25,156 bases of DNA from a virus: the IMG/VR virus record IMGVR_UViG_3300011115_000445, positions 1 to 25,156 of that record. One strand, given 5' to 3'. The notes beneath the pieces are model-generated. The model saw nothing but the letters and a program-made list of their open reading frames with translations. It did not search any database and was not told the DNA's origin. Position numbers and translations under genes: made by a program. Below, in pieces: positions 8,441 through 25,096 of the stretch; the first letter of the stretch is position 1, and every line of letters begins with the position of its first letter.

Positions 8441-11287
8441 TTAAGAACTCCTCACAATATTCATTCTCAATTCTCGGTCAATAAGTTTAGTTACTTCTTT
8501 TGCTAACTTAGCAGCGTCCATAGGAACAGAACCAGTGCTGTTAACATTTATAGTAGGATTAATGTTAAATACATTATTATTTGTTGGTCCAGTAGTAATT
8601 TTAGTAGAAGAAGGTGCCGACGAACCTGTTTGTTTAGTTGGAGTATAACCTTTACCAGAAGGGTCACCTTCTTGTTTAAGTCCAGACTTGTAAGAATCCC
8701 AATGATACGCAACATTGTAATTGCGGTCTGCAGTCATGCCATCTGCCATTTTCCAATTAGCCGCTACCTCTAAGTTTTTTTTAGGGTCCCATAAACCAGA
8801 AAAATCGTTTTTAAATTCTGGATGTATTTTGAGCATATCTTGGTAATCATGACCACTCATACCTTCCATATTTAACTGGAGTAATCCAAAAGATAAATCT
8901 TTAGTGGATGCTGATGGGTTTAATGAGTTTGCATCCCACGTGTTTCCAGTTTCACGCCCTACAAATCCCATAAACTTAGTTAATTCTTCTTCACTTAATT
9001 TTTTACCACGAACAGAAAGACTACGAAGCATATCTTTAACTACACTCTTAGAGATTGTGTTTTTTCCCATTACCTTTTGTAATTTTGAATAATAGTCTCT
9101 ATGGTCTTGGTTAATGTTTCCTCTGTTTTTAGGAGGTCCACTACTACCACTATCATTTGATGTTTGATTAGAGGTGTTTCTCCCACCACCAGCACCGCCA
9201 GAGTTGCCATGAGAGTTACCATACAACAACGTTGTTAATCTACCTTGTGAAAATGCTGCAATTGATTCGGCAGTGCTCATTTGTTGGTGCACTGTTGCTT
9301 CATAACTCATGTTCATACCACTTTGACCCATTGGTCCAGTTTCAGCAGTTGACCCAGTTGTTCCAATTACATATTTAGTATCTGTATTTTCTTCTGTTCC
9401 ATATGATGCGCCCCCCTCTTCATAATTTCTACGACTGGCTGGATAGGCTTTTGATTGCACGTGCCACACTTCTCCAAGTCGTGAGAATTCATCAAGACCA
9501 TATTTACTTGCATTGTTCCTTAACCATTGTTCATCTTCAGTTGATGAAAACGTAAGGTCGGCAGCCAAACCAATTTCGTGATAAGACAATCCAGGAGGTG
9601 CTGCCGCAGCAACTCCAGGTTTCTTTTGCCAATAAGAACCGTCATAAAACGTTTCTGTTTTTTCATCAGTTTTATAATAACGTGACAAAAACATGCTTTT
9701 CTGTTCTTCAGCACTACGGTATGCACCACCAATACCTATTCCTGGACGGTCCATTAATAAGCGAGTAAGTGGTTCACGAAGAACTGGTTTTAATTGTGAA
9801 AGAAGGTTTTGGTCTCCCTTTTTAACTGTTGGATTAACTGAAGCAATACTTCCAGGACTTGCTGTTCCTCCACCAGTAGCGTCCCCAAGTTTTGTTCCAA
9901 TACCTGAACCAATTCCATAACCAGCAACTGCTCCCATAGGTCCACCAGCATACGCACCAACAATTGCTCCAGCAATTCCAAGTGCTGGGCTTAACAGTTG
10001 ACCAAATCCACGAGTGCTTGTTCTTGCCCCAGTAATTCCAGATAATTTGTCTTCAAAAGCACCTAACGCTTTGTTTACAGCCTGCAAGTTCTTTTCCATT
10101 TGAGCGTAGTTATCCGCTTGACGCTTATACATTTGCTCTTCACGGTTTATCCCTGTTCGTGTAGTTTCCTCTTGTTGTGTAGCATAGTTTCCTTCAATAC
10201 CCATACGTTCACGGTCAGATTTTTTAGATGGGTCGTAAAAACCTTTTCCACCTTTTTCAGTAAAACTAACGTTTGATTCTGCGTATTGCAACAACAAATC
10301 TTGAGCACCTTGGTCTAGTCCAGACATTTGCAATCTTTGACGAACCATTGAACCCTCTTGACGACCAGCGTTGATTAGTTCACGATTGTTTAAACCAAGT
10401 CTTCCAATTAAATCTTGGTTTACTTGTTGTGCTGATTTTTGTTTACCACCAATTCCATAAAGGCTGGTACCAGTCATCATAAACATTTTGTTTACTGTGT
10501 CTGCTTGACCTAAACTTTCAATATAGTTAGTTGCATCACCAGCGCTGGTTCCATATCCCATGAGTGTTCGTATGCTTTCAACAGAACCTGCTTGCTTTTG
10601 AGCATTAATACCAGTGCGTGATTGCATTGAAAGTAGTTCGTTAATTCCACCCATTCCTAAACGATTTTTACGCAACGGTCCACGCAAATCATTCATTACA
10701 CCCATTTGACTCATGCCATACTGTTGCTGCAGTTGCACACTTAACTTGTCTGCTGAAAGTGCATAACCTTTGTTACGGTCAACACGGTCATCAATTGCAC
10801 CTATTGCTGCTTGTCCAAATTGTGAAGCCGCTTGAACGTAAGGGTTGTTTCCAAAAGCCTTTAAACCACCAAGAGTTTTTCCGCCACCACCTCCTCCACC
10901 TCCAGGAAGCCCACCACCTTTACCAAGCGCTCCTAAGATGCGTTCAACATCAGCCAGTTGTTGTTGGCGACCAGCAACCGCAGCATCAGGCATACCTTTG
11001 CTTACGTCCATGTAGCCAGAACTAGACTTACCACTAACTTTGCCCATTGCAGTAGCGGCTTTGTTTAATTCTGCAGTTAAGTCTTTGGTGTTACTAATTA
11101 AATCTTTAAAATTAGATTTAATCTTTTTAGTGTTTTCGTTTAATTTACTAAGTTCGCTGTTAAGACCTTCCAACATTTTAAGGTCAACGCTAAGGCGTGA
11201 GTTAACAACAGAATTACCCATTGAACTTGAGGCGTTGCCTTCAGCAGCACTGCCGCCTAAACCTCCACCAAGATTTGGTTCTTCCAT
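8441..11287 (-). CDS. Tape measure protein with M15 peptidase and transglycosylase-like domains
   Basis: A 948-residue tail tape measure, which sets tail length and is ejected during infection. Residues 35-85 are helical, 122-136 hold a glycine tract, and 432-464 form a hydrophobic Gly/Ala-rich segment that could insert in a membrane. Residues about 505-612 look like an M15 D,L/D,D-peptidase: R524, H570 and D577 in SYHEIGLAAD, and E606 with H609 in EVWH. Residues about 765-850 look like a lytic transglycosylase/lysozyme fold: E779 in GRETG, SFGLLQLN (799-806), and LWDPKKNLEVAA (832-843). The last 40 residues (VTKLIDRELR) are a typical tape-measure tail. Position between chaperone and baseplate genes supports the call. 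Both hydrolase domains keep their visible key residues. Confidence 0.88.
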   Translation of the reverse strand: MEEPNLGGGLGGSAAEGNASSSMGNSVVNSRLSVDLKMLEGLNSELSKLNENTKKIKSNFKDLISNTKDLTAELNKAATAMGKVSGKSSSGYMDVSKGMPDAAVAGRQQQLADVERILGALGKGGGLPGGGGGGGGKTLGGLKAFGNNPYVQAASQFGQAAIGAIDDRVDRNKGYALSADKLSVQLQQQYGMSQMGVMNDLRGPLRKNRLGMGGINELLSMQSRTGINAQKQAGSVESIRTLMGYGTSAGDATNYIESLGQADTVNKMFMMTGTSLYGIGGKQKSAQQVNQDLIGRLGLNNRELINAGRQEGSMVRQRLQMSGLDQGAQDLLLQYAESNVSFTEKGGKGFYDPSKKSDRERMGIEGNYATQQEETTRTGINREEQMYKRQADNYAQMEKNLQAVNKALGAFEDKLSGITGARTSTRGFGQLLSPALGIAGAIVGAYAGGPMGAVAGYGIGSGIGTKLGDATGGGTASPGSIASVNPTVKKGDQNLLSQLKPVLREPLTRLLMDRPGIGIGGAYRSAEEQKSMFLSRYYKTDEKTETFYDGSYWQKKPGVAAAAPPGLSYHEIGLAADLTFSSTEDEQWLRNNASKYGLDEFSRLGEVWHVQSKAYPASRRNYEEGGASYGTEENTDTKYVIGTTGSTAETGPMGQSGMNMSYEATVHQQMSTAESIAAFSQGRLTTLLYGNSHGNSGGAGGGRNTSNQTSNDSGSSGPPKNRGNINQDHRDYYSKLQKVMGKNTISKSVVKDMLRSLSVRGKKLSEEELTKFMGFVGRETGNTWDANSLNPSASTKDLSFGLLQLNMEGMSGHDYQDMLKIHPEFKNDFSGLWDPKKNLEVAANWKMADGMTADRNYNVAYHWDSYKSGLKQEGDPSGKGYTPTKQTGSSAPSSTKITTGPTNNNVFNINPTINVNSTGSVPMDAAKLAKEVTKLIDRELRMNIVRSS

Positions 11288-18385: not shown

Positions 18386-19480
18386 TTACGAAGCGCCGAT
18401 TGCGCCACCCTTAGTGTTGATAAGCACTCGGCTCTCGTGAGTAATAACTCCGAAACCCCAAATTGCGTACCAAGCGAGACCATGCTCACGACCAAAGTCA
18501 ATGACGCCACCATCTCGTAACTCAACTGGCAAAGCGATTGCTTGACCAAATGCGTTATCACCAATCATCATCGCGTTATACGAATCAGCAATTGGGTCTT
18601 GGAAACCAGCCGTTACTGGGTTGACGTCAACAATGTCTGTTGTCGCTTGTCCCTTAAGTACTTGAGTGGTTTCAATGAATACAACGTCGTAGAGACGACC
18701 AATTTCACCAAGCATGAAGTTGCCTGGAGCAGCGTACTTAGTGACTTCAATAAATTCAGGCCAGTCACGAAGCGAACGGCTTTGTGATGGGTGAACGAAG
18801 CACACGTATGTGTCGCCAAGACGTGGGATGTTCTGACCAGCAAGTACTTCAACTGCATCTTTAATAGTTGCAGGTGAGAGATAGCCAGGAGCCGAAGCCG
18901 ACCCAGCCGCTGAGTACTCGTAAGGAGCAATTGAACCACGTGTTGCGCCGTTGGTGTTGCGACCAAAAACCACACTTGGAGGAACTGCTGAACCACCAGC
19001 AAACGGAACACCTGAAGAGTAAAGAGTGTTACGTGCTTGAATGTCCATTGACTGTGCCATGTGACGACCAAGGAGACGTGAAGCCGATGCCATTACGTCA
19101 TCAAATGCTGCGTTAAGTAACAACTCGGTGACAGCAACTGACTTGCCTTGTTCCTTTACGGTGATTTGGATTTGACTTGCCGAAAGAGCACTTGGCTCCA
19201 TACGGACACCTTCAACCAACACTGCACCTGTATCGTCGTTGGTTGTGAGGTTTGTGTAACGCATGAAGTTAACTGTCAAACCAGGCATTACACCAAGTTC
19301 TGTCTTCTTTACTGCGAACTGTTCAAAACGAAGAACAGGCATTGCTTGGAACAAAATCTCTTTTGACCAAATTGCTTGAATTGCTGGTGAGAGGGATGAA
19401 TCACTTGAGTAGCCAGTCGTTGTAATTGCCGACAAGTCTGCTCCAGTAACTGCACCACCTGCTGGGCCTGGATATGCCAT
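18386..19480 (-). CDS. Major capsid protein, N4-gp56 family
   Basis: A 364-residue capsid subunit. The pattern IWSKEILFQAMPVLRFEQFAV (37-57), then LGVMPGLTVNFMRYTNL, EGVRMEPSALSASQIQITVKEQGKSVAVTELLLNAAFDDVMASASRLLGRHMAQSMD and ARNTLYSSG fits the N4-gp56 family of HK97-fold major capsid proteins. The N-terminus before the fold is short (about 30 residues, Gly/Ala/Ser-rich), so there is no long built-in scaffold domain; a separate scaffold is encoded just upstream. AAAGGA lies about 10 nt before the ATG. A strong hairpin follows the gene, in keeping with high expression. Confidence 0.9.
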   Translation of the reverse strand: MAYPGPAGGAVTGADLSAITTTGYSSDSSLSPAIQAIWSKEILFQAMPVLRFEQFAVKKTELGVMPGLTVNFMRYTNLTTNDDTGAVLVEGVRMEPSALSASQIQITVKEQGKSVAVTELLLNAAFDDVMASASRLLGRHMAQSMDIQARNTLYSSGVPFAGGSAVPPSVVFGRNTNGATRGSIAPYEYSAAGSASAPGYLSPATIKDAVEVLAGQNIPRLGDTYVCFVHPSQSRSLRDWPEFIEVTKYAAPGNFMLGEIGRLYDVVFIETTQVLKGQATTDIVDVNPVTAGFQDPIADSYNAMMIGDNAFGQAIALPVELRDGGVIDFGREHGLAWYAIWGFGVITHESRVLINTKGGAIGAS

Positions 19481-19535: not shown

Positions 19536-20330
19536 TTAAAAACGACCCTTTGAAGAACGTGCATTTAATATTTTCTCACGCATTTTTTGATACTGTTCCA
19601 TTGACATATTGCGGATATCTTCCGCAGTAATCGTTTGCTGCTCCATTTGGGTTTCCATTGGTCCAACAGGAGGTGATGTAACACCTACTGCTTTAAAGCG
19701 AGTCTGAGATTCAGACTGCACTCTTTGGACATTTTCAAGAATAGCAGAACTTGCGTCCTTGTACTTGCTAATCTGTAACTCAATCTCTTCCTCAGAGTAA
19801 CCAGTTATCAGGGGAAGGAGTTGTGGAATAATGTTCTCCTGCTCCTCCTGCATGCGGCGAGAGATGTAAGTTTGGAGTTCTTGGTGGCGTCGTTCTTTAT
19901 CCAAAAGGGCTGCCTGTGCCTGACGGTCACGCTCAATCTCTTCTAGACGACCTTTCCACTCATTTTCAACGTCATTGATTTTCTTTGTAAACTCTGTCTC
20001 TTGCTTTAGGAGGAGTTCTTTTGCGCTCAACTCTTCAAATTCGCGTTGTTTACGAATGTCTGCTTCTTTGAGAGCAGTTTCTTCAGCCTTCCTAATAGCC
20101 GCTTCTCGCTCTCCAGTAATGACTTTTAATTGCTCTTCCATTGTCTTTGTTCGTAAATCGGCTTCTTCAAGACGCTTATACATCTTGTCTTTTTCCTGTT
20201 TACGGATGCTCTCAACGTCGTCTTCAGTAAAGGTCTTATTATTTTGACCTGTAACTTTTGCTGACTCATCCATCATTGTTGCTGTTGCTTCTGCAAGGAT
20301 AGTAACAGTGTCATCTGTTTGCTTTGCCAT
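19536..20330 (-). CDS. Prohead scaffolding protein
   Basis: A 264-residue, highly charged protein between portal and capsid genes. Residues about 40-185 are almost continuous coiled coil, with Glu, Lys, Arg and Gln heptads (for example RLEEADLRTKTMEEQLKVI and KNDVENEW-like repeats). The C-terminal part (MSMEQYQKMREKILNARSSKGRF) is basic and probably binds the capsid protein, as scaffold C-termini do. Position, composition and length fit a scaffold. I see no protease domain fused to it, unlike the protease-scaffold fusions of some phages. The ribosome site (GAAAG) is weak. Confidence 0.85.
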   Translation of the reverse strand: MAKQTDDTVTILAEATATMMDESAKVTGQNNKTFTEDDVESIRKQEKDKMYKRLEEADLRTKTMEEQLKVITGEREAAIRKAEETALKEADIRKQREFEELSAKELLLKQETEFTKKINDVENEWKGRLEEIERDRQAQAALLDKERRHQELQTYISRRMQEEQENIIPQLLPLITGYSEEEIELQISKYKDASSAILENVQRVQSESQTRFKAVGVTSPPVGPMETQMEQQTITAEDIRNMSMEQYQKMREKILNARSSKGRF

Positions 20331-20380: not shown

Positions 20381-22063
20381 TTAATCTTCGTCTGGATTAC
20401 GGCGCTGGGCGAACCTAGCACCATAAGCCTTGCTAACCAATTGATTCATCAGGTCTGATTCTACAGGGTTTACAGCCGTTCCAGGCATAGAACCTTGAGA
20501 ATTTCCTGCTGTAGATACGTCAGACCCCCCAGCCGACGTAGGAACAGGACCTTCATTATTAGGCAACATACCTGTTGCCAACATAATTGCGGCTTGTATT
20601 TGAGAAGTAAGCATGGTCAAAGCACCTTGGTCAATAGCGTCATCCATGAGTTCTTCAAAGATTTCTTCCATCTTTTCGTTCGGAAATTCCTCACCCAATG
20701 TACGCAGAGCACCGCGTTTTGATTCTAAACCCAATGACATCTTTGCTTGTACTTCATTAAGTTTAATAAGCACATCTACAGGCAATGGGTCAGGCCAATG
20801 GCATGTTGTTTTGTACGTAATAGGGTCAGCAGGGTCTAACTCAAGAAGATTATCTCGTTCTGGTTTTGCTGATTTTAATTGATTATAAACTAGCATTTCT
20901 GGTCTGAACACAGCAGCAGTACGAATAACAAGTTCGTTTATTCGCTCAAGACCTTTTGAAAAATGAATCTTTTTCATTTGATAACGATTCATTAAAGGCT
21001 GATATTGAATAGCCAAAGCAACACCAGAAGTGTTAGACACTGGTTGGAATTGTCCTAATGCTGCTTCTGGAATACCAGTAATCTCGTGCATTGTTCGTTT
21101 AATAATATTGATGTATTCAATAGCGCCAGCCATTTCACCGCGAGATTCAAGGTTAAATACCGAAGCATCTTTTGGTAATCCAGCCCAAACTTTCTTAGGT
21201 CCTCGCTCTAATTGACTAGCCTTTGCTCCAGTAATAATTGTTACTGGTGCAGCATGGTAGTTAATGATGTCTGAAACTTCAGCCATCTTTTCATTTAATT
21301 CACGATTTAACGGAATAATATCCCAAATATCTGATTGACCCCAAGGTGATGAAGAGATACTTACGTTAGTAATGTGGACAATAGGGACCATTCCAATAGC
21401 GTTTTGGTATTCATCAATCAATTCATCATTAATAAATTGTTGAATGTTATCGTCTGTAAGGATTTCTGTAAACGTATAAACTTGACGAGTACCTTCAGCA
21501 GAAGTTCCCCAAAAACGGTATTTTAATTTAAACCGAATAATGCGGTCACGGTCATGTGGGTGGTATTCAGGAAAACAGTGCGCTGGGTTAAGTGGAATAA
21601 TTCTAATACGACCTTCGTGTGGGATACCAGCACCATCTACATAAGGTTCTTCGTACGCTACTTTGGTAAAGCAATCGCCAGTAACTCCAGCCAATTGCCC
21701 CATTTCCCAAATAACTTTATGTTTGTTATTATGGGTGCTCCACACATCATCTAATAAGTGAGGAATTATTGCATTGTTCTGTTCAGGAACTTTAAATTGA
21801 ACGCCTTTACCAAAACAAAAGTTTGTAATGTAATCCGACATAGTTCGGACGTAGTTTGAATAAAATTGAGATTCACCCATCTCACGGCGATATGACCAGT
21901 GGTGTCCTAAGTACCACGCCCAAGCAGACGAGTATCTGTTTAGACGTGGACCGTGGACTTCAAACTCTTCGTCGGCTAACTCAACAAGCCCTAAAGGGCT
22001 AATAGCAACTGTTAAGTCACTAGCAGAAGCACGATAAGAAGGTGACCAAAAATCAATTCCCAT
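20381..22063 (-). CDS. Portal protein
   Basis: A 560-residue portal, the dodecameric ring through which DNA enters and leaves the head. It shows the expected plan: an N-terminal part with SNYVRTMSDYITNFCFGKGVQF, a clip/wing region with GDCFTKVAYEEPYVDGAG and IRIIPLNPAHCFPEY, a stem part with LNRELNEKMAEVSDIINYHAAPVTIITG, then TGIPEAALGQFQPVSNTSGVAL followed by MNRYQMKK. The G-I-P-x-x-x-L-x-x-x-x-x-x-S-G-x-A-L segment is typical for portals. The last 55 residues are low-complexity (Gly/Ser/Pro) and end in RRNPDED. No large-terminase gene lies immediately before it, which is unusual. Confidence 0.9.
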   Translation of the reverse strand: MGIDFWSPSYRASASDLTVAISPLGLVELADEEFEVHGPRLNRYSSAWAWYLGHHWSYRREMGESQFYSNYVRTMSDYITNFCFGKGVQFKVPEQNNAIIPHLLDDVWSTHNNKHKVIWEMGQLAGVTGDCFTKVAYEEPYVDGAGIPHEGRIRIIPLNPAHCFPEYHPHDRDRIIRFKLKYRFWGTSAEGTRQVYTFTEILTDDNIQQFINDELIDEYQNAIGMVPIVHITNVSISSSPWGQSDIWDIIPLNRELNEKMAEVSDIINYHAAPVTIITGAKASQLERGPKKVWAGLPKDASVFNLESRGEMAGAIEYINIIKRTMHEITGIPEAALGQFQPVSNTSGVALAIQYQPLMNRYQMKKIHFSKGLERINELVIRTAAVFRPEMLVYNQLKSAKPERDNLLELDPADPITYKTTCHWPDPLPVDVLIKLNEVQAKMSLGLESKRGALRTLGEEFPNEKMEEIFEELMDDAIDQGALTMLTSQIQAAIMLATGMLPNNEGPVPTSAGGSDVSTAGNSQGSMPGTAVNPVESDLMNQLVSKAYGARFAQRRNPDED

Positions 22064-22071
22064 TTAGTGGC

Positions 22072-22377
22072 TTATTTCTTTTTGTTCTCTGAATCGCCTT
22101 TTTTAATTGCAGTAACTTTAGCAACTCCAGTTGGTCGTGCAACTGTTTCTTTAACTGAAGCCTCAGCAACCTTGCTTTGTTTAGCAAAAAAGTTAGCAAT
22201 TTGAGGGTCTCCAATTTTAGTGCTAAGAAAGTTAAGCACGTATAGAATAGCAGGTAAAATTACAATGTTAAGAGAAGGGTCAACTTCCCATGTAGCCATT
22301 AGGTATGAAACAACACCGATTGTTCCACCTTTAGTTGCTACATCCGTAATTTCTGACATATTTATTTTCTTAGTCAT
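22072..22377 (-). CDS. Small membrane protein, holin candidate
   Basis: A 101-residue protein with two likely membrane helices at about 14-30 (GTIGVVSYLMATW) and 35-52 (SLNIVILPAILYVLNFLS), separated by a short Asp/Pro turn. It has a Lys-rich hydrophilic C-terminus ending in KKGDSENKKK. Two helices plus a charged tail fit a class II-type holin, and an M15 endolysin lies three genes upstream, but the gene sits directly before the portal, so a head- or DNA-packaging-associated membrane protein is also possible. AAGGAGAC lies 5-6 nt before the ATG. Topology is visible; holin is inference. Confidence 0.6.
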   Translation of the reverse strand: MTKKINMSEITDVATKGGTIGVVSYLMATWEVDPSLNIVILPAILYVLNFLSTKIGDPQIANFFAKQSKVAEASVKETVARPTGVAKVTAIKKGDSENKKK

Positions 22378-22407: not shown

Positions 22408-23037
22408 TTATACCTTTTTGCGTCGTTTAACGCTCACTTTTTCGCCTTGTACAAATGAATGATAAGGCGACCCTGTGTGAGGGTCGTATTTGGAAGCAAC
22501 AGCCAAAGCGCGAAAACATGCTGTTTTTGCAAATTGACTATTTACTTTTTTGTTACGAGTTAATACCTCTAGTGCGCCTAGCGCATAAGAAGCACCTGAA
22601 CCTAAGGCGTATAGCCCAGTTGCTTCAGAAGACCATGAATAATCACTTTCTACAACATAGATAGTACTGTTAATAGAAACGATGACTGAGGAACCCTGTT
22701 CTGCAATGTGTTCTTTATCTTCACGTTCAGGTACAGCGTATCCTTGTGATTCAAAACAATCTCTTAAAGATGGCACAAATTTAGATGTAAAAAACTGGTC
22801 TAAAGTTTTCTTTTTGTAACTTACAGGAGGAGAGGGTGGTTGAAAAACATGTTGAAGAATGTTAATGGCGCGAACGTCACCAGCAGCACCAATCAAGTAT
22901 TTACCGTTTTGAGAAACTTTGCTAGAACCTTCTCGTAAAGTTCCAATCTGGAAAAACTTATCACCACTTGTAGACACACGAGAGTCTGAGCAAATTACTG
23001 AAAACCCATCTCCTTGAATACCGAGGATAGTAGTCAT
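22408..23037 (-). CDS. HslV/20S-proteasome-like N-terminal threonine hydrolase
   Basis: A 209-residue protease-like protein of the Ntn-hydrolase fold. I start it at the ATG at 23037, 2 nt after the stop of the previous gene; the longer TTG-started frame would bury the nucleophile. After loss of Met it begins TTILGI, so Thr2 would be the nucleophile. CSDSR (16-20) matches the conserved D17-x-R19 position, K40-V41 the catalytic lysine region (K33, here shifted by an insertion), IGAAGD (49-54) the GxxG helix start, and LYALGSGASYALGA (142-155) the A-x-G-S-G segment. D185 with T188-G189 fits the late Asp/Ser region. No propeptide is present, as in HslV; PrcB and Anbu are the other relatives. The C-terminus is basic (KRRKKV). 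No AAA+ unfoldase is encoded in the window. It probably forms an oligomeric peptidase, perhaps for head maturation. Confidence 0.82.
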   Translation of the reverse strand: MTTILGIQGDGFSVICSDSRVSTSGDKFFQIGTLREGSSKVSQNGKYLIGAAGDVRAINILQHVFQPPSPPVSYKKKTLDQFFTSKFVPSLRDCFESQGYAVPEREDKEHIAEQGSSVIVSINSTIYVVESDYSWSSEATGLYALGSGASYALGALEVLTRNKKVNSQFAKTACFRALAVASKYDPHTGSPYHSFVQGEKVSVKRRKKV

Positions 23038-23039
23038 GG

Positions 23040-24191
23040 TTACTTGACGATAAATTCTTTGCCATGATATATAGCCCAACCATTGTATATAGGTATTAGT
23101 TCATATGAGAACTTATGGTCTCCACTCTGTTCGTAGGTAACCACAGCCAATCCTTGTTGCCAGTTTTCATACCTAACAAGTGGTCGTCCATCAAGGTCTA
23201 CACCACCTCTAGTAGAGGGCACTGCTCCGTCAATACGAGCAAGACAACCAGGAGAGGCTGCCATAATTGTACGAGGACCATCAAAGTCTTCTCGTGTTTT
23301 AAATGCCATTTCAATTCTGTGAATGTGCCCGTAAATAACAGAAGTCTTTTCTTGGTTTAGGTATATATGTGCTGTTGACCCTGATGATTTAACCCTGTCT
23401 CCATGAATAACACGAAGTTTTTCATTAATCCAAAAATCAGATGCTGGATAGCCTGGACGGTACTCAACACCAAACTCATCCATACGGCAAAGATACGGAA
23501 CAGTTAACACAGGCCAAGAATCTGGAGTGTTACCCTTCCTTAAACCATAAGCAGCACCAGCGTTAGTAAGTAAGTATTTTGGCATTCGCTCTTCATGGTT
23601 TCCTGCTAACCAAACAATAGTTGCACTTGGAGCAGCCTCACGAAGTTCTGCACAAAACTTTGTTGCGCGGTCAATTGCTGCTTGAGTAGTTTGTGCGTAC
23701 GATGGGTAGGTAAGATATTTACCCATTTCAGGTAAATCTAGATTGTCACCAACACAGACAACGGTTTGAGGTTGTACCTCGCGTATTAATTCAATTGCAA
23801 TTTGCATTGCTTTTTCATCATGGGTTGGTTCAAGTTTCCCATCCCGTCCTCGGAAATAACCAATTTGAGCGTCTGGAACTATCACACACTTCTTATATTT
23901 GTTTTTGGTTTTAACAATTGGTTTTTTAATAGGCAATTTAATTGCTGGTCCTTGTTGGACCACAGGCCACTCAGGACCACTGTCCCAAGAAGGTGAGAAC
24001 TGAATAGCAGCAAGGTCGTGTACTTCTGCCTCACCATCCTCATTTTTAGTAAGTGATTGGTAAATAGATACCCGTTTTACATCACCAATATCTTCAATAT
24101 CTATGTTCTTGCGGTCAAGCAACTCAAGCAACTTACCAAGAACTTTGGTATTTTTGTTTGGTTGGTTTAAGTCATTAATCAGATTGTTCAC
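23040..24191 (-). CDS. Calcineurin-like metallophosphoesterase
   Basis: A 383-residue metallophosphoesterase. Residues 100-330 contain all metal-binding motifs: D107-A-Q109 (a variant of the usual D-x-H), G148-D-N-L-D152, G197-N-H-E200, H263 in VIHGD, and G288-H-I-H291. It probably cleaves phosphodiester or phosphomonoester bonds; phage members have been linked to nucleic-acid or nucleotide processing, but the substrate cannot be read here. The first 100 residues are a separate low-similarity region beginning NNLINDLNQPNK, which resembles the start of the neighbouring HTH protein. The start is GTG, chosen because AAGGAG lies about 10 nt upstream; the gene overlaps the HTH gene by 17 nt. Confidence 0.88.
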   Translation of the reverse strand: MNNLINDLNQPNKNTKVLGKLLELLDRKNIDIEDIGDVKRVSIYQSLTKNEDGEAEVHDLAAIQFSPSWDSGPEWPVVQQGPAIKLPIKKPIVKTKNKYKKCVIVPDAQIGYFRGRDGKLEPTHDEKAMQIAIELIREVQPQTVVCVGDNLDLPEMGKYLTYPSYAQTTQAAIDRATKFCAELREAAPSATIVWLAGNHEERMPKYLLTNAGAAYGLRKGNTPDSWPVLTVPYLCRMDEFGVEYRPGYPASDFWINEKLRVIHGDRVKSSGSTAHIYLNQEKTSVIYGHIHRIEMAFKTREDFDGPRTIMAASPGCLARIDGAVPSTRGGVDLDGRPLVRYENWQQGLAVVTYEQSGDHKFSYELIPIYNGWAIYHGKEFIVK

Positions 24192-24544: not shown

Positions 24545-25096
24545 TTAAACTAGTGGTTGTCCACCAGTGAAAGCAACAACGGCTGGTGTTGGATTATCAC
24601 CAGTTACTAGTCGCAAATGCCATGGTTCGCTTGGAAAAACTTCCCAACTAAAACCAAAGTCTTTAACATTATTGATGAGCCAGGTTAGTCGTTTTGCTTC
24701 TCCTGCAGAATGAACGTCTATAGCCAAACCAAGATTATGATTTGACTTTCCTGGTGTAGCCATCATAGCCATACCCTTTTTTAGATACCAGGTTTTGCCT
24801 TCAAAGGTTTTTGTGCTTGTTCCGACAACTGGTTCCAATACGTAGCGTGACTTAAAGCCCGCCAATTGCGAGTCGTAAGTGTGATAGAGGTCGCCCGACG
24901 ACGTGGGTTTGAGTTCAAGCCCTTCCGCTGCTGCTTTGGCGACCATTGCGTTCCATGCGTCTGCTGCTCGCCAATGGAGTTTTCCACCTGTTGGGATTTT
25001 TCTGAGCAATTCTTCAGGCAATTTTCCAGGGGTTACTCCTTTTAGGTCGGCTGGCATTTTGATAGGAACAATGTAATTCCAAGCAATTTTATTCAT
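24545..25096 (-). CDS. M15 family peptidase, probable endolysin
   Basis: A 183-residue single-domain peptidase of the M15 (VanY/L-Ala-D-Glu or D-Ala-D-Ala carboxypeptidase) type. Zinc ligands are visible: H120 and D127 in SNHNLGLAIDVH, and H160 in EPWHLR, with E157 as likely general base. YDSQLAGFKSRY (74-85) is the upstream conserved part. No signal peptide and no separate wall-binding domain are seen, so it would need a holin or sit in the virion. It begins with an ATG that overlaps the previous stop (ATGA), with AAGGAAG upstream. A second M15-type domain is present in the tape measure, so this free copy is best explained as the lysis enzyme. Confidence 0.87.
   Translation of the reverse strand: MNKIAWNYIVPIKMPADLKGVTPGKLPEELLRKIPTGGKLHWRAADAWNAMVAKAAAEGLELKPTSSGDLYHTYDSQLAGFKSRYVLEPVVGTSTKTFEGKTWYLKKGMAMMATPGKSNHNLGLAIDVHSAGEAKRLTWLINNVKDFGFSWEVFPSEPWHLRLVTGDNPTPAVVAFTGGQPLV

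Follow-up and report, generated by a model that had tools for sequence, protein, structure and literature searches.

We find that the window, by which we mean the whole 25,156-nucleotide stretch analysed here (the full 25,156 bases of IMG/VR record IMGVR_UViG_3300011115_000445), carries a gene for a predicted member of the proteasome-like superfamily, and that this Ntn gene is a new branch of a class already known from phages. New are its abundance in actinophages, a portal neighbourhood that recurs in two lineages and natural presence/absence pairs, for which we found no earlier description in the literature. The gene is accessory, and the explanation we favour, to which we give about an even chance, is that it encodes a self-contained BPH-like barrel peptidase carried as accessory cargo and acting in the infected actinobacterial cell. 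Two phages already in culture, whose host is a dominant freshwater bacterium, encode distant homologues, and the combination of an abundant branch, a repeated neighbourhood, presence/absence pairs and cultured phages makes the viral use of a proteasome-like enzyme directly testable.

The gene runs from ATG to stop on the minus strand, with the coordinates given by an earlier sequence-only reading; the minus frame is open, and the plus strand of the same interval is full of stops and holds no open frame. Its ATG lies 2 nt past the stop of the upstream metallophosphoesterase gene, a spacing kept in relatives, whose Ntn starts fall mostly at −4 to +5 nt relative to the phosphoesterase stop, and in 88 of 126 testable relatives an in-frame stop lies within 20 codons upstream with no alternative start between, so that the predicted start codon is sound. 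This start codon directly precedes a Thr, and relatives show no conserved upstream extension, in agreement with the propeptide-free start first read from the letters; all motifs quoted in that reading (the MTT start, SDSR, the K-V pair, IGAAGD and ALGSGASYA) are found in the 209-aa protein. Sheath- and tube-like genes can also be read in the record.

Table 1. Predicted features of the head-gene region of the window and of the Ntn protein
Feature	Position	Strand	Remarks
Major capsid protein	18386..19480	-	phrog_1357, PF25209; no additional domain at the N terminus relative to the family model
Scaffold-like protein	19536..20330	-	in the same place as the scaffold annotated in Streptomyces phage Alone3
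Portal protein, SPP1 gp6-like	20381..22063	-	phrog_64
Small protein, putatively holin-like	22072..22377	-	hydrophobic segments and basic tail; no family match
Proteasome-like Ntn threonine peptidase	22408..23037	-	209 aa, ATG to stop 23037-22408; profile, fold and conservation tests
Part coding for the C-terminal tail of the Ntn protein	22408-22430	-	
Calcineurin-like metallophosphoesterase (MPE)	23040..24191	-	kept in relatives without the Ntn gene
Predicted nucleophile	Thr2 (mature Thr1)		209-aa Ntn protein
Predicted catalytic Asp	Asp18 (Asp17)		Asp of SDSR
Predicted catalytic Lys	Lys40 (Lys33)		Lys of K-V
Predicted oxyanion position	Gly50		
Further predicted active-site positions	Ser147 (Ser129), Asp185/Thr188 (Asp166/Ser169)		
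Pore loop	residues 98-116		
Basic C-terminal tail	residues 203-209		

An AlphaFold model of the monomer (pLDDT 84.8, pTM 0.81) shows the strands to be expected together with four helices, H1–H4, and thus the four-layer Ntn fold that the sequence-only reading had staked its assignment on, with BPH, HslV and 20S β subunits as the top fold matches. Z-scores over about 170 residues are 19.4 for BPH, 18.5 for HslV, 18.4 for the M. tuberculosis 20S β subunit and 17.9 for Anbu (5nyw), and BPH, HslV and 20S cannot be told apart by structure alone, their values being too close to rank. A profile of the relatives likewise matches BPH, HslV and 20S β subunits in the PDB (best BPH E = 2.7e-5, HslV 4e-5), and the protein passes the Pfam Proteasome model PF00227 marginally, at 22.8 bits against a curated cut-off of 22.4. 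The direct match is to phrog_1040, "peptidase HslV family" (E = 1.8e-22), and A0A6J7XBU4 of an uncultured phage is similar as well (39% identity, TM 0.86–0.92); both are known by annotation only, as is most of what the literature holds on phage HslV.

The profile searches place the protein within the proteasome/HslV superfamily, as proposed, but not in HslV proper or PrcB proper. The HslV equivalog cut-offs are not reached (NF003964, 22 against 137 bits; TIGR03692, 20.1 against 157.75), and HslV proper is rejected on these scores and on the failure to find an HslU partner in the relatives' records; the fold, the propeptide-free start and the GSG motif are shared with HslV, whereas the pore loop is longer. 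PrcB is rejected by its equivalog TIGR03690 (13.5 against 191.9 bits) and by the missing propeptide before the Thr. The long C-terminal helix H5 of Anbu is not found, the model having no helix after residue 184. BPH (5ovs, 5ovt, 5ovu) is the top structural match (Foldseek E = 2e-11; 2.9 Å over 176 residues at the Z-score above) and the top PDB sequence match, and it shares with the Ntn protein a long acidic pore loop and the lack of a detected unfoldase; unlike BPH, however, the Ntn protein has an insertion before the Lys, identity is only about 20%, and HslV and 20S lie within about 1 Z unit.

Phage-encoded proteasome homologues named PPH, AAH and CPH were described in 2021 (Fuchs, Alva, Lupas, PMC8665760). 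Our protein resembles them in being group I proteasome-like, in occurring in tailed phages without a propeptide, in its Thr1/Asp17/Lys33 set and in having no AAA+ partner that could be found; that survey found no co-occurring AAA+ partners either (PMC8665760). PPH itself is excluded, with about 140 published residues and no helix 2, compared with 209 residues and a helix 2 predicted at residues 76–97, from which a 19-residue loop (98–116) leads to the next strand. Membership of AAH or CPH is plausible: in a profile comparison, a set of Rhizobium, Mesorhizobium and Streptomyces plasmid proteins and phage relatives proves clearly related (E = 6e-45, 27% identity). The survey reported AAH in no actinobacteria-specific phage, an uninformative gene context and no function for the phage-borne members (PMC8665760), whereas the hosts here are actinobacterial and the present branch supplies a recurrent context, the portal neighbourhood.

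Thr2, Asp18 and Lys40 are invariant in 42/42 diverse relatives and common also to the plasmid and other phage homologues, and the Thr start, whose loss in close relatives would have counted against the earlier assignment, is present in 195/195 homologous loci (some overlapping on the same contigs). Position 147 is Ser or Thr in the 42 diverse relatives with a single Cys exception, and Asp185 and Thr188 are retained in 40 of them; the GSG motif reads GTG, at residue 147, in about half of the diverse relatives (the L023 group and other homologues). Close pairs give dN/dS of about 0.02–0.16, which indicates that the gene is under purifying selection, and given this ratio and the conserved catalytic positions a catalytically dead decoy is unlikely.

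The insertion before the lysine, already remarked on from the sequence, is real and amounts to six to seven residues relative to HslV and BPH-type relatives, a rough comparison in the case of HslV since the E. coli sequence aligned is approximate; it puts the Lys of K-V six positions later than Lys33 when the second residue is counted as Thr1. Specific insertions lie at residues 23–37 and 66–75. At the other end of the protein, 59 of 60 distinct copies from the window's lineage have a mostly basic tail with Val as its last residue (RRKKV, SRKPV), compared with 3/32 in other gene contexts, and this tail could serve in docking or nucleic-acid binding.

In the window's lineage the order MPE–Ntn–small gene–portal–scaffold–capsid recurs in most contigs. 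A second lineage is represented by OX376640 and OX376641, which are LanE43-AprE7 and LanE43-AprF5 (E7 and F5), the first phages to be grown on 'Ca. Planktophila' (PMC10202952); each encodes a homologue next to the portal gene. These homologues belong to the same family and likewise come from phages of an actinobacterial freshwater host, but their identity across the matched segment is about 32%, the gene lies downstream of the portal, and the portal families are unrelated (PHROG 104 in the E7 lineage, 64 in the window's). Both genomes were deposited unannotated as 'Caudovirales sp. ct2KA10', with the proteasome-like protein directly after the portal (L133:5698-8036 and L287). Among E7-lineage contigs found by their Ntn gene, it follows the portal by 18–54 nt in 81/81, so that adjacency to the portal gene region, first noted in the window, is seen in two unrelated actinophage lineages.

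In other branches the gene has WhiB and phosphoesterase nearby, or SSB and uracil-DNA glycosylase; in the unrelated phages Pumpernickel and AAS21 and one IMG/VR contig (L130, L132, L180) it is found beside or near thymidylate synthase genes. The protein tree mixes these contexts, which implies that the Ntn gene has moved. The phosphoesterase was considered as an obligate partner and rejected, as relatives that have no Ntn gene retain it and it is absent beside the Ntn gene in group L151.

That the gene is accessory follows from its absence in relatives of three kinds. When the portal was used as bait (75–81% portal identity), 23 of 53 testable relatives had no Ntn gene at the site while retaining phosphoesterase, portal, scaffold and capsid, although some of the loci in this count end before the capsid gene. 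A search of all the available sequence of nine of these gene-lacking records found the Ntn gene nowhere, with both controls matched. In the E7 lineage it is present in 61/68 and missing in 7/68, and of three lacking records searched whole, two of about 37–40 kb held none; in these seven (L390, L395, L409, L414, L424, L425, L444) the portal is followed directly by another small gene instead, of about 75–80 aa. Streptomyces phages whose heads are related (e.g., Alone3, Abafar) were also searched, and the gene was not found. The portal tree requires several state changes, of which well-supported branches force few; because the outgroup branch is very long, neither the root nor the number of gains is certain. 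An obligate head-maturation protease is rejected by these relatives with the same head module. The sequence-only reading had set the gene in a structural block as part of a virion module: its position beside head genes stands, but membership of the virion module is weakened, since many relatives share the head genes but not this gene, and in other phages it sits with the SSB/UDG, WhiB or thymidylate synthase genes.

The branch is not rare, contrary to what had been supposed: IMG/VR pattern scans give at least 576 and at least 579 confirmed relatives, with 144 in a second branch, so that hundreds of viral contigs carry the gene. The suggested actinobacterial host is borne out by the regulator WhiB, an actinobacterial marker, found in 15/15 long Ntn-bearing records and 6/6 in a second set (only 1/14 control genomes matched, that one an actinobacterium), and by the cultured relatives on 'Ca. 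Planktophila'; DSL-LC01, a named relative, is predicted to be an actinophage. The sole match in genome_contigs, L122 (JAURLY010000091.1), is a Gammaproteobacteria MAG contig with a phosphoesterase–Ntn–WhiB arrangement, and we rejected it as a cellular relative because it carries WhiB and is probably an actinophage contig in the wrong bin. A literature search on a proteasome of the host bacteria found no paper.

The absence of an unfoldase, noted in the window (a 25-kb fragment), extends to 13 long records of relatives, where AAA_2 (ClpX/HslU/ClpA-type) gave no match while controls matched in 14/14, and a phage-encoded ClpX/HslU-type partner is accordingly rejected. In HslV the pore linker is short and an ATPase caps the enzyme, and in BPH the pore loop is elongated and acidic and there is apparently no unfoldase (PMC8665760, PMC5777263; family knowledge); the EDKEH within loop 98–116 of the Ntn protein aligns with the acidic EDKED of Td-BPH. 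It is this long acidic loop, together with the 13 records free of such ATPases, that favours a self-contained barrel. In our preferred explanation the protein is a group I proteasome homologue on the HslV/BPH side, in which removal of Met would expose Thr2 as the N-terminal nucleophile, acting with Asp18 and Lys40; the subunits would most likely close into a homo-oligomeric double ring that encloses the active sites, and, given the BPH-like loop and no dedicated unfoldase, would most likely degrade unfolded or specifically recognised proteins free of ATP. Its place of action would be the infected actinobacterial cell, in a host-directed role, and the gene would be cargo under purifying selection, inserted beside portal genes, rather than an essential head-assembly protease. 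ATP-independent proteolysis is uncertain because BPH itself is inactive in standard assays (PMC5777263). Weak AAA matches (PF00004, weak or single and not adjoining the Ntn gene) in some records count against an unfoldase-free reading, and the recurrent portal neighbourhood, which is easier to reconcile with a role linked to heads than with one directed purely at the host, counts against the preferred explanation.

Pairs of peptidase and ATPase have precedent in the superfamily in HslU–HslV and Mpa–20S, and the Ntn protein might by analogy be the peptidase half of a two-part machine in which a host unfoldase (Mpa/ARC, ClpX, ClpC or another AAA+) redirects host proteolysis during infection. Phage records without an unfoldase and the actinobacterial host markers would suit this arrangement, but the long acidic pore loop, so unlike the short linker of HslV, and the lack of co-occurring AAA+ partners in the 2021 survey (PMC8665760) speak against it, and we hold it to be rather unlikely.

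We consider it unlikely that the protein is a head-assembly protease, made with the portal, entering the prohead and trimming portal, scaffold or capsid instead of the usual prohead protease. Adjacency to two different portal families speaks for it, as do the lineage-specific Val-ending tail and the searches for a conventional enzyme, in which the S78 prohead protease gave no match in 11 uncultured Ntn-bearing records or in the 9 of a second search and a ClpP-type protease none among 16 records (a T4-type S77 search was uninformative, its controls giving no match). S78 and ClpP-type enzymes are absent both with and without the Ntn gene, however, so no trade-off is seen, and relatives that share the portal, scaffold and capsid do without either the Ntn gene or such a replacement; the capsid protein carries no additional domain at its N terminus, and in many phages the gene lies far from head genes. 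The head-processing idea is thus weakened, while the portal neighbourhood and basic tail still call for explanation. DSL-LC01, unlike the other Ntn-bearing records tested, has a Peptidase_S78 match (OQ999401 66328-66648) inside an 869-aa frame.

A more elaborate proposal, that a proteasome-type threonine peptidase was taken up independently by two unrelated freshwater actinophage lineages to serve as an optional processing enzyme associated with the head or portal, possibly one that is packaged in the virion and injected, strikes us as decidedly improbable. A highly specific amide-bond enzyme, monomeric or a small oligomer and engaged in limited processing or ligation like connectase, a monomeric ligase of this family, would accord with the insertions at 23–37 and 66–75 and with a dispensable, patchy gene, but is very unlikely, as the model lacks a helical insertion of the connectase type, which would come between strands 3 and 4, and all four flanking helices of the ring-forming members are predicted.

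Positions 8441-11287 of the window encode a 948-aa, probably tape-measure-like protein, part of which resembles D-Ala-D-Ala peptidases; there is also a separate gene of VanY type, at 24545-25096.
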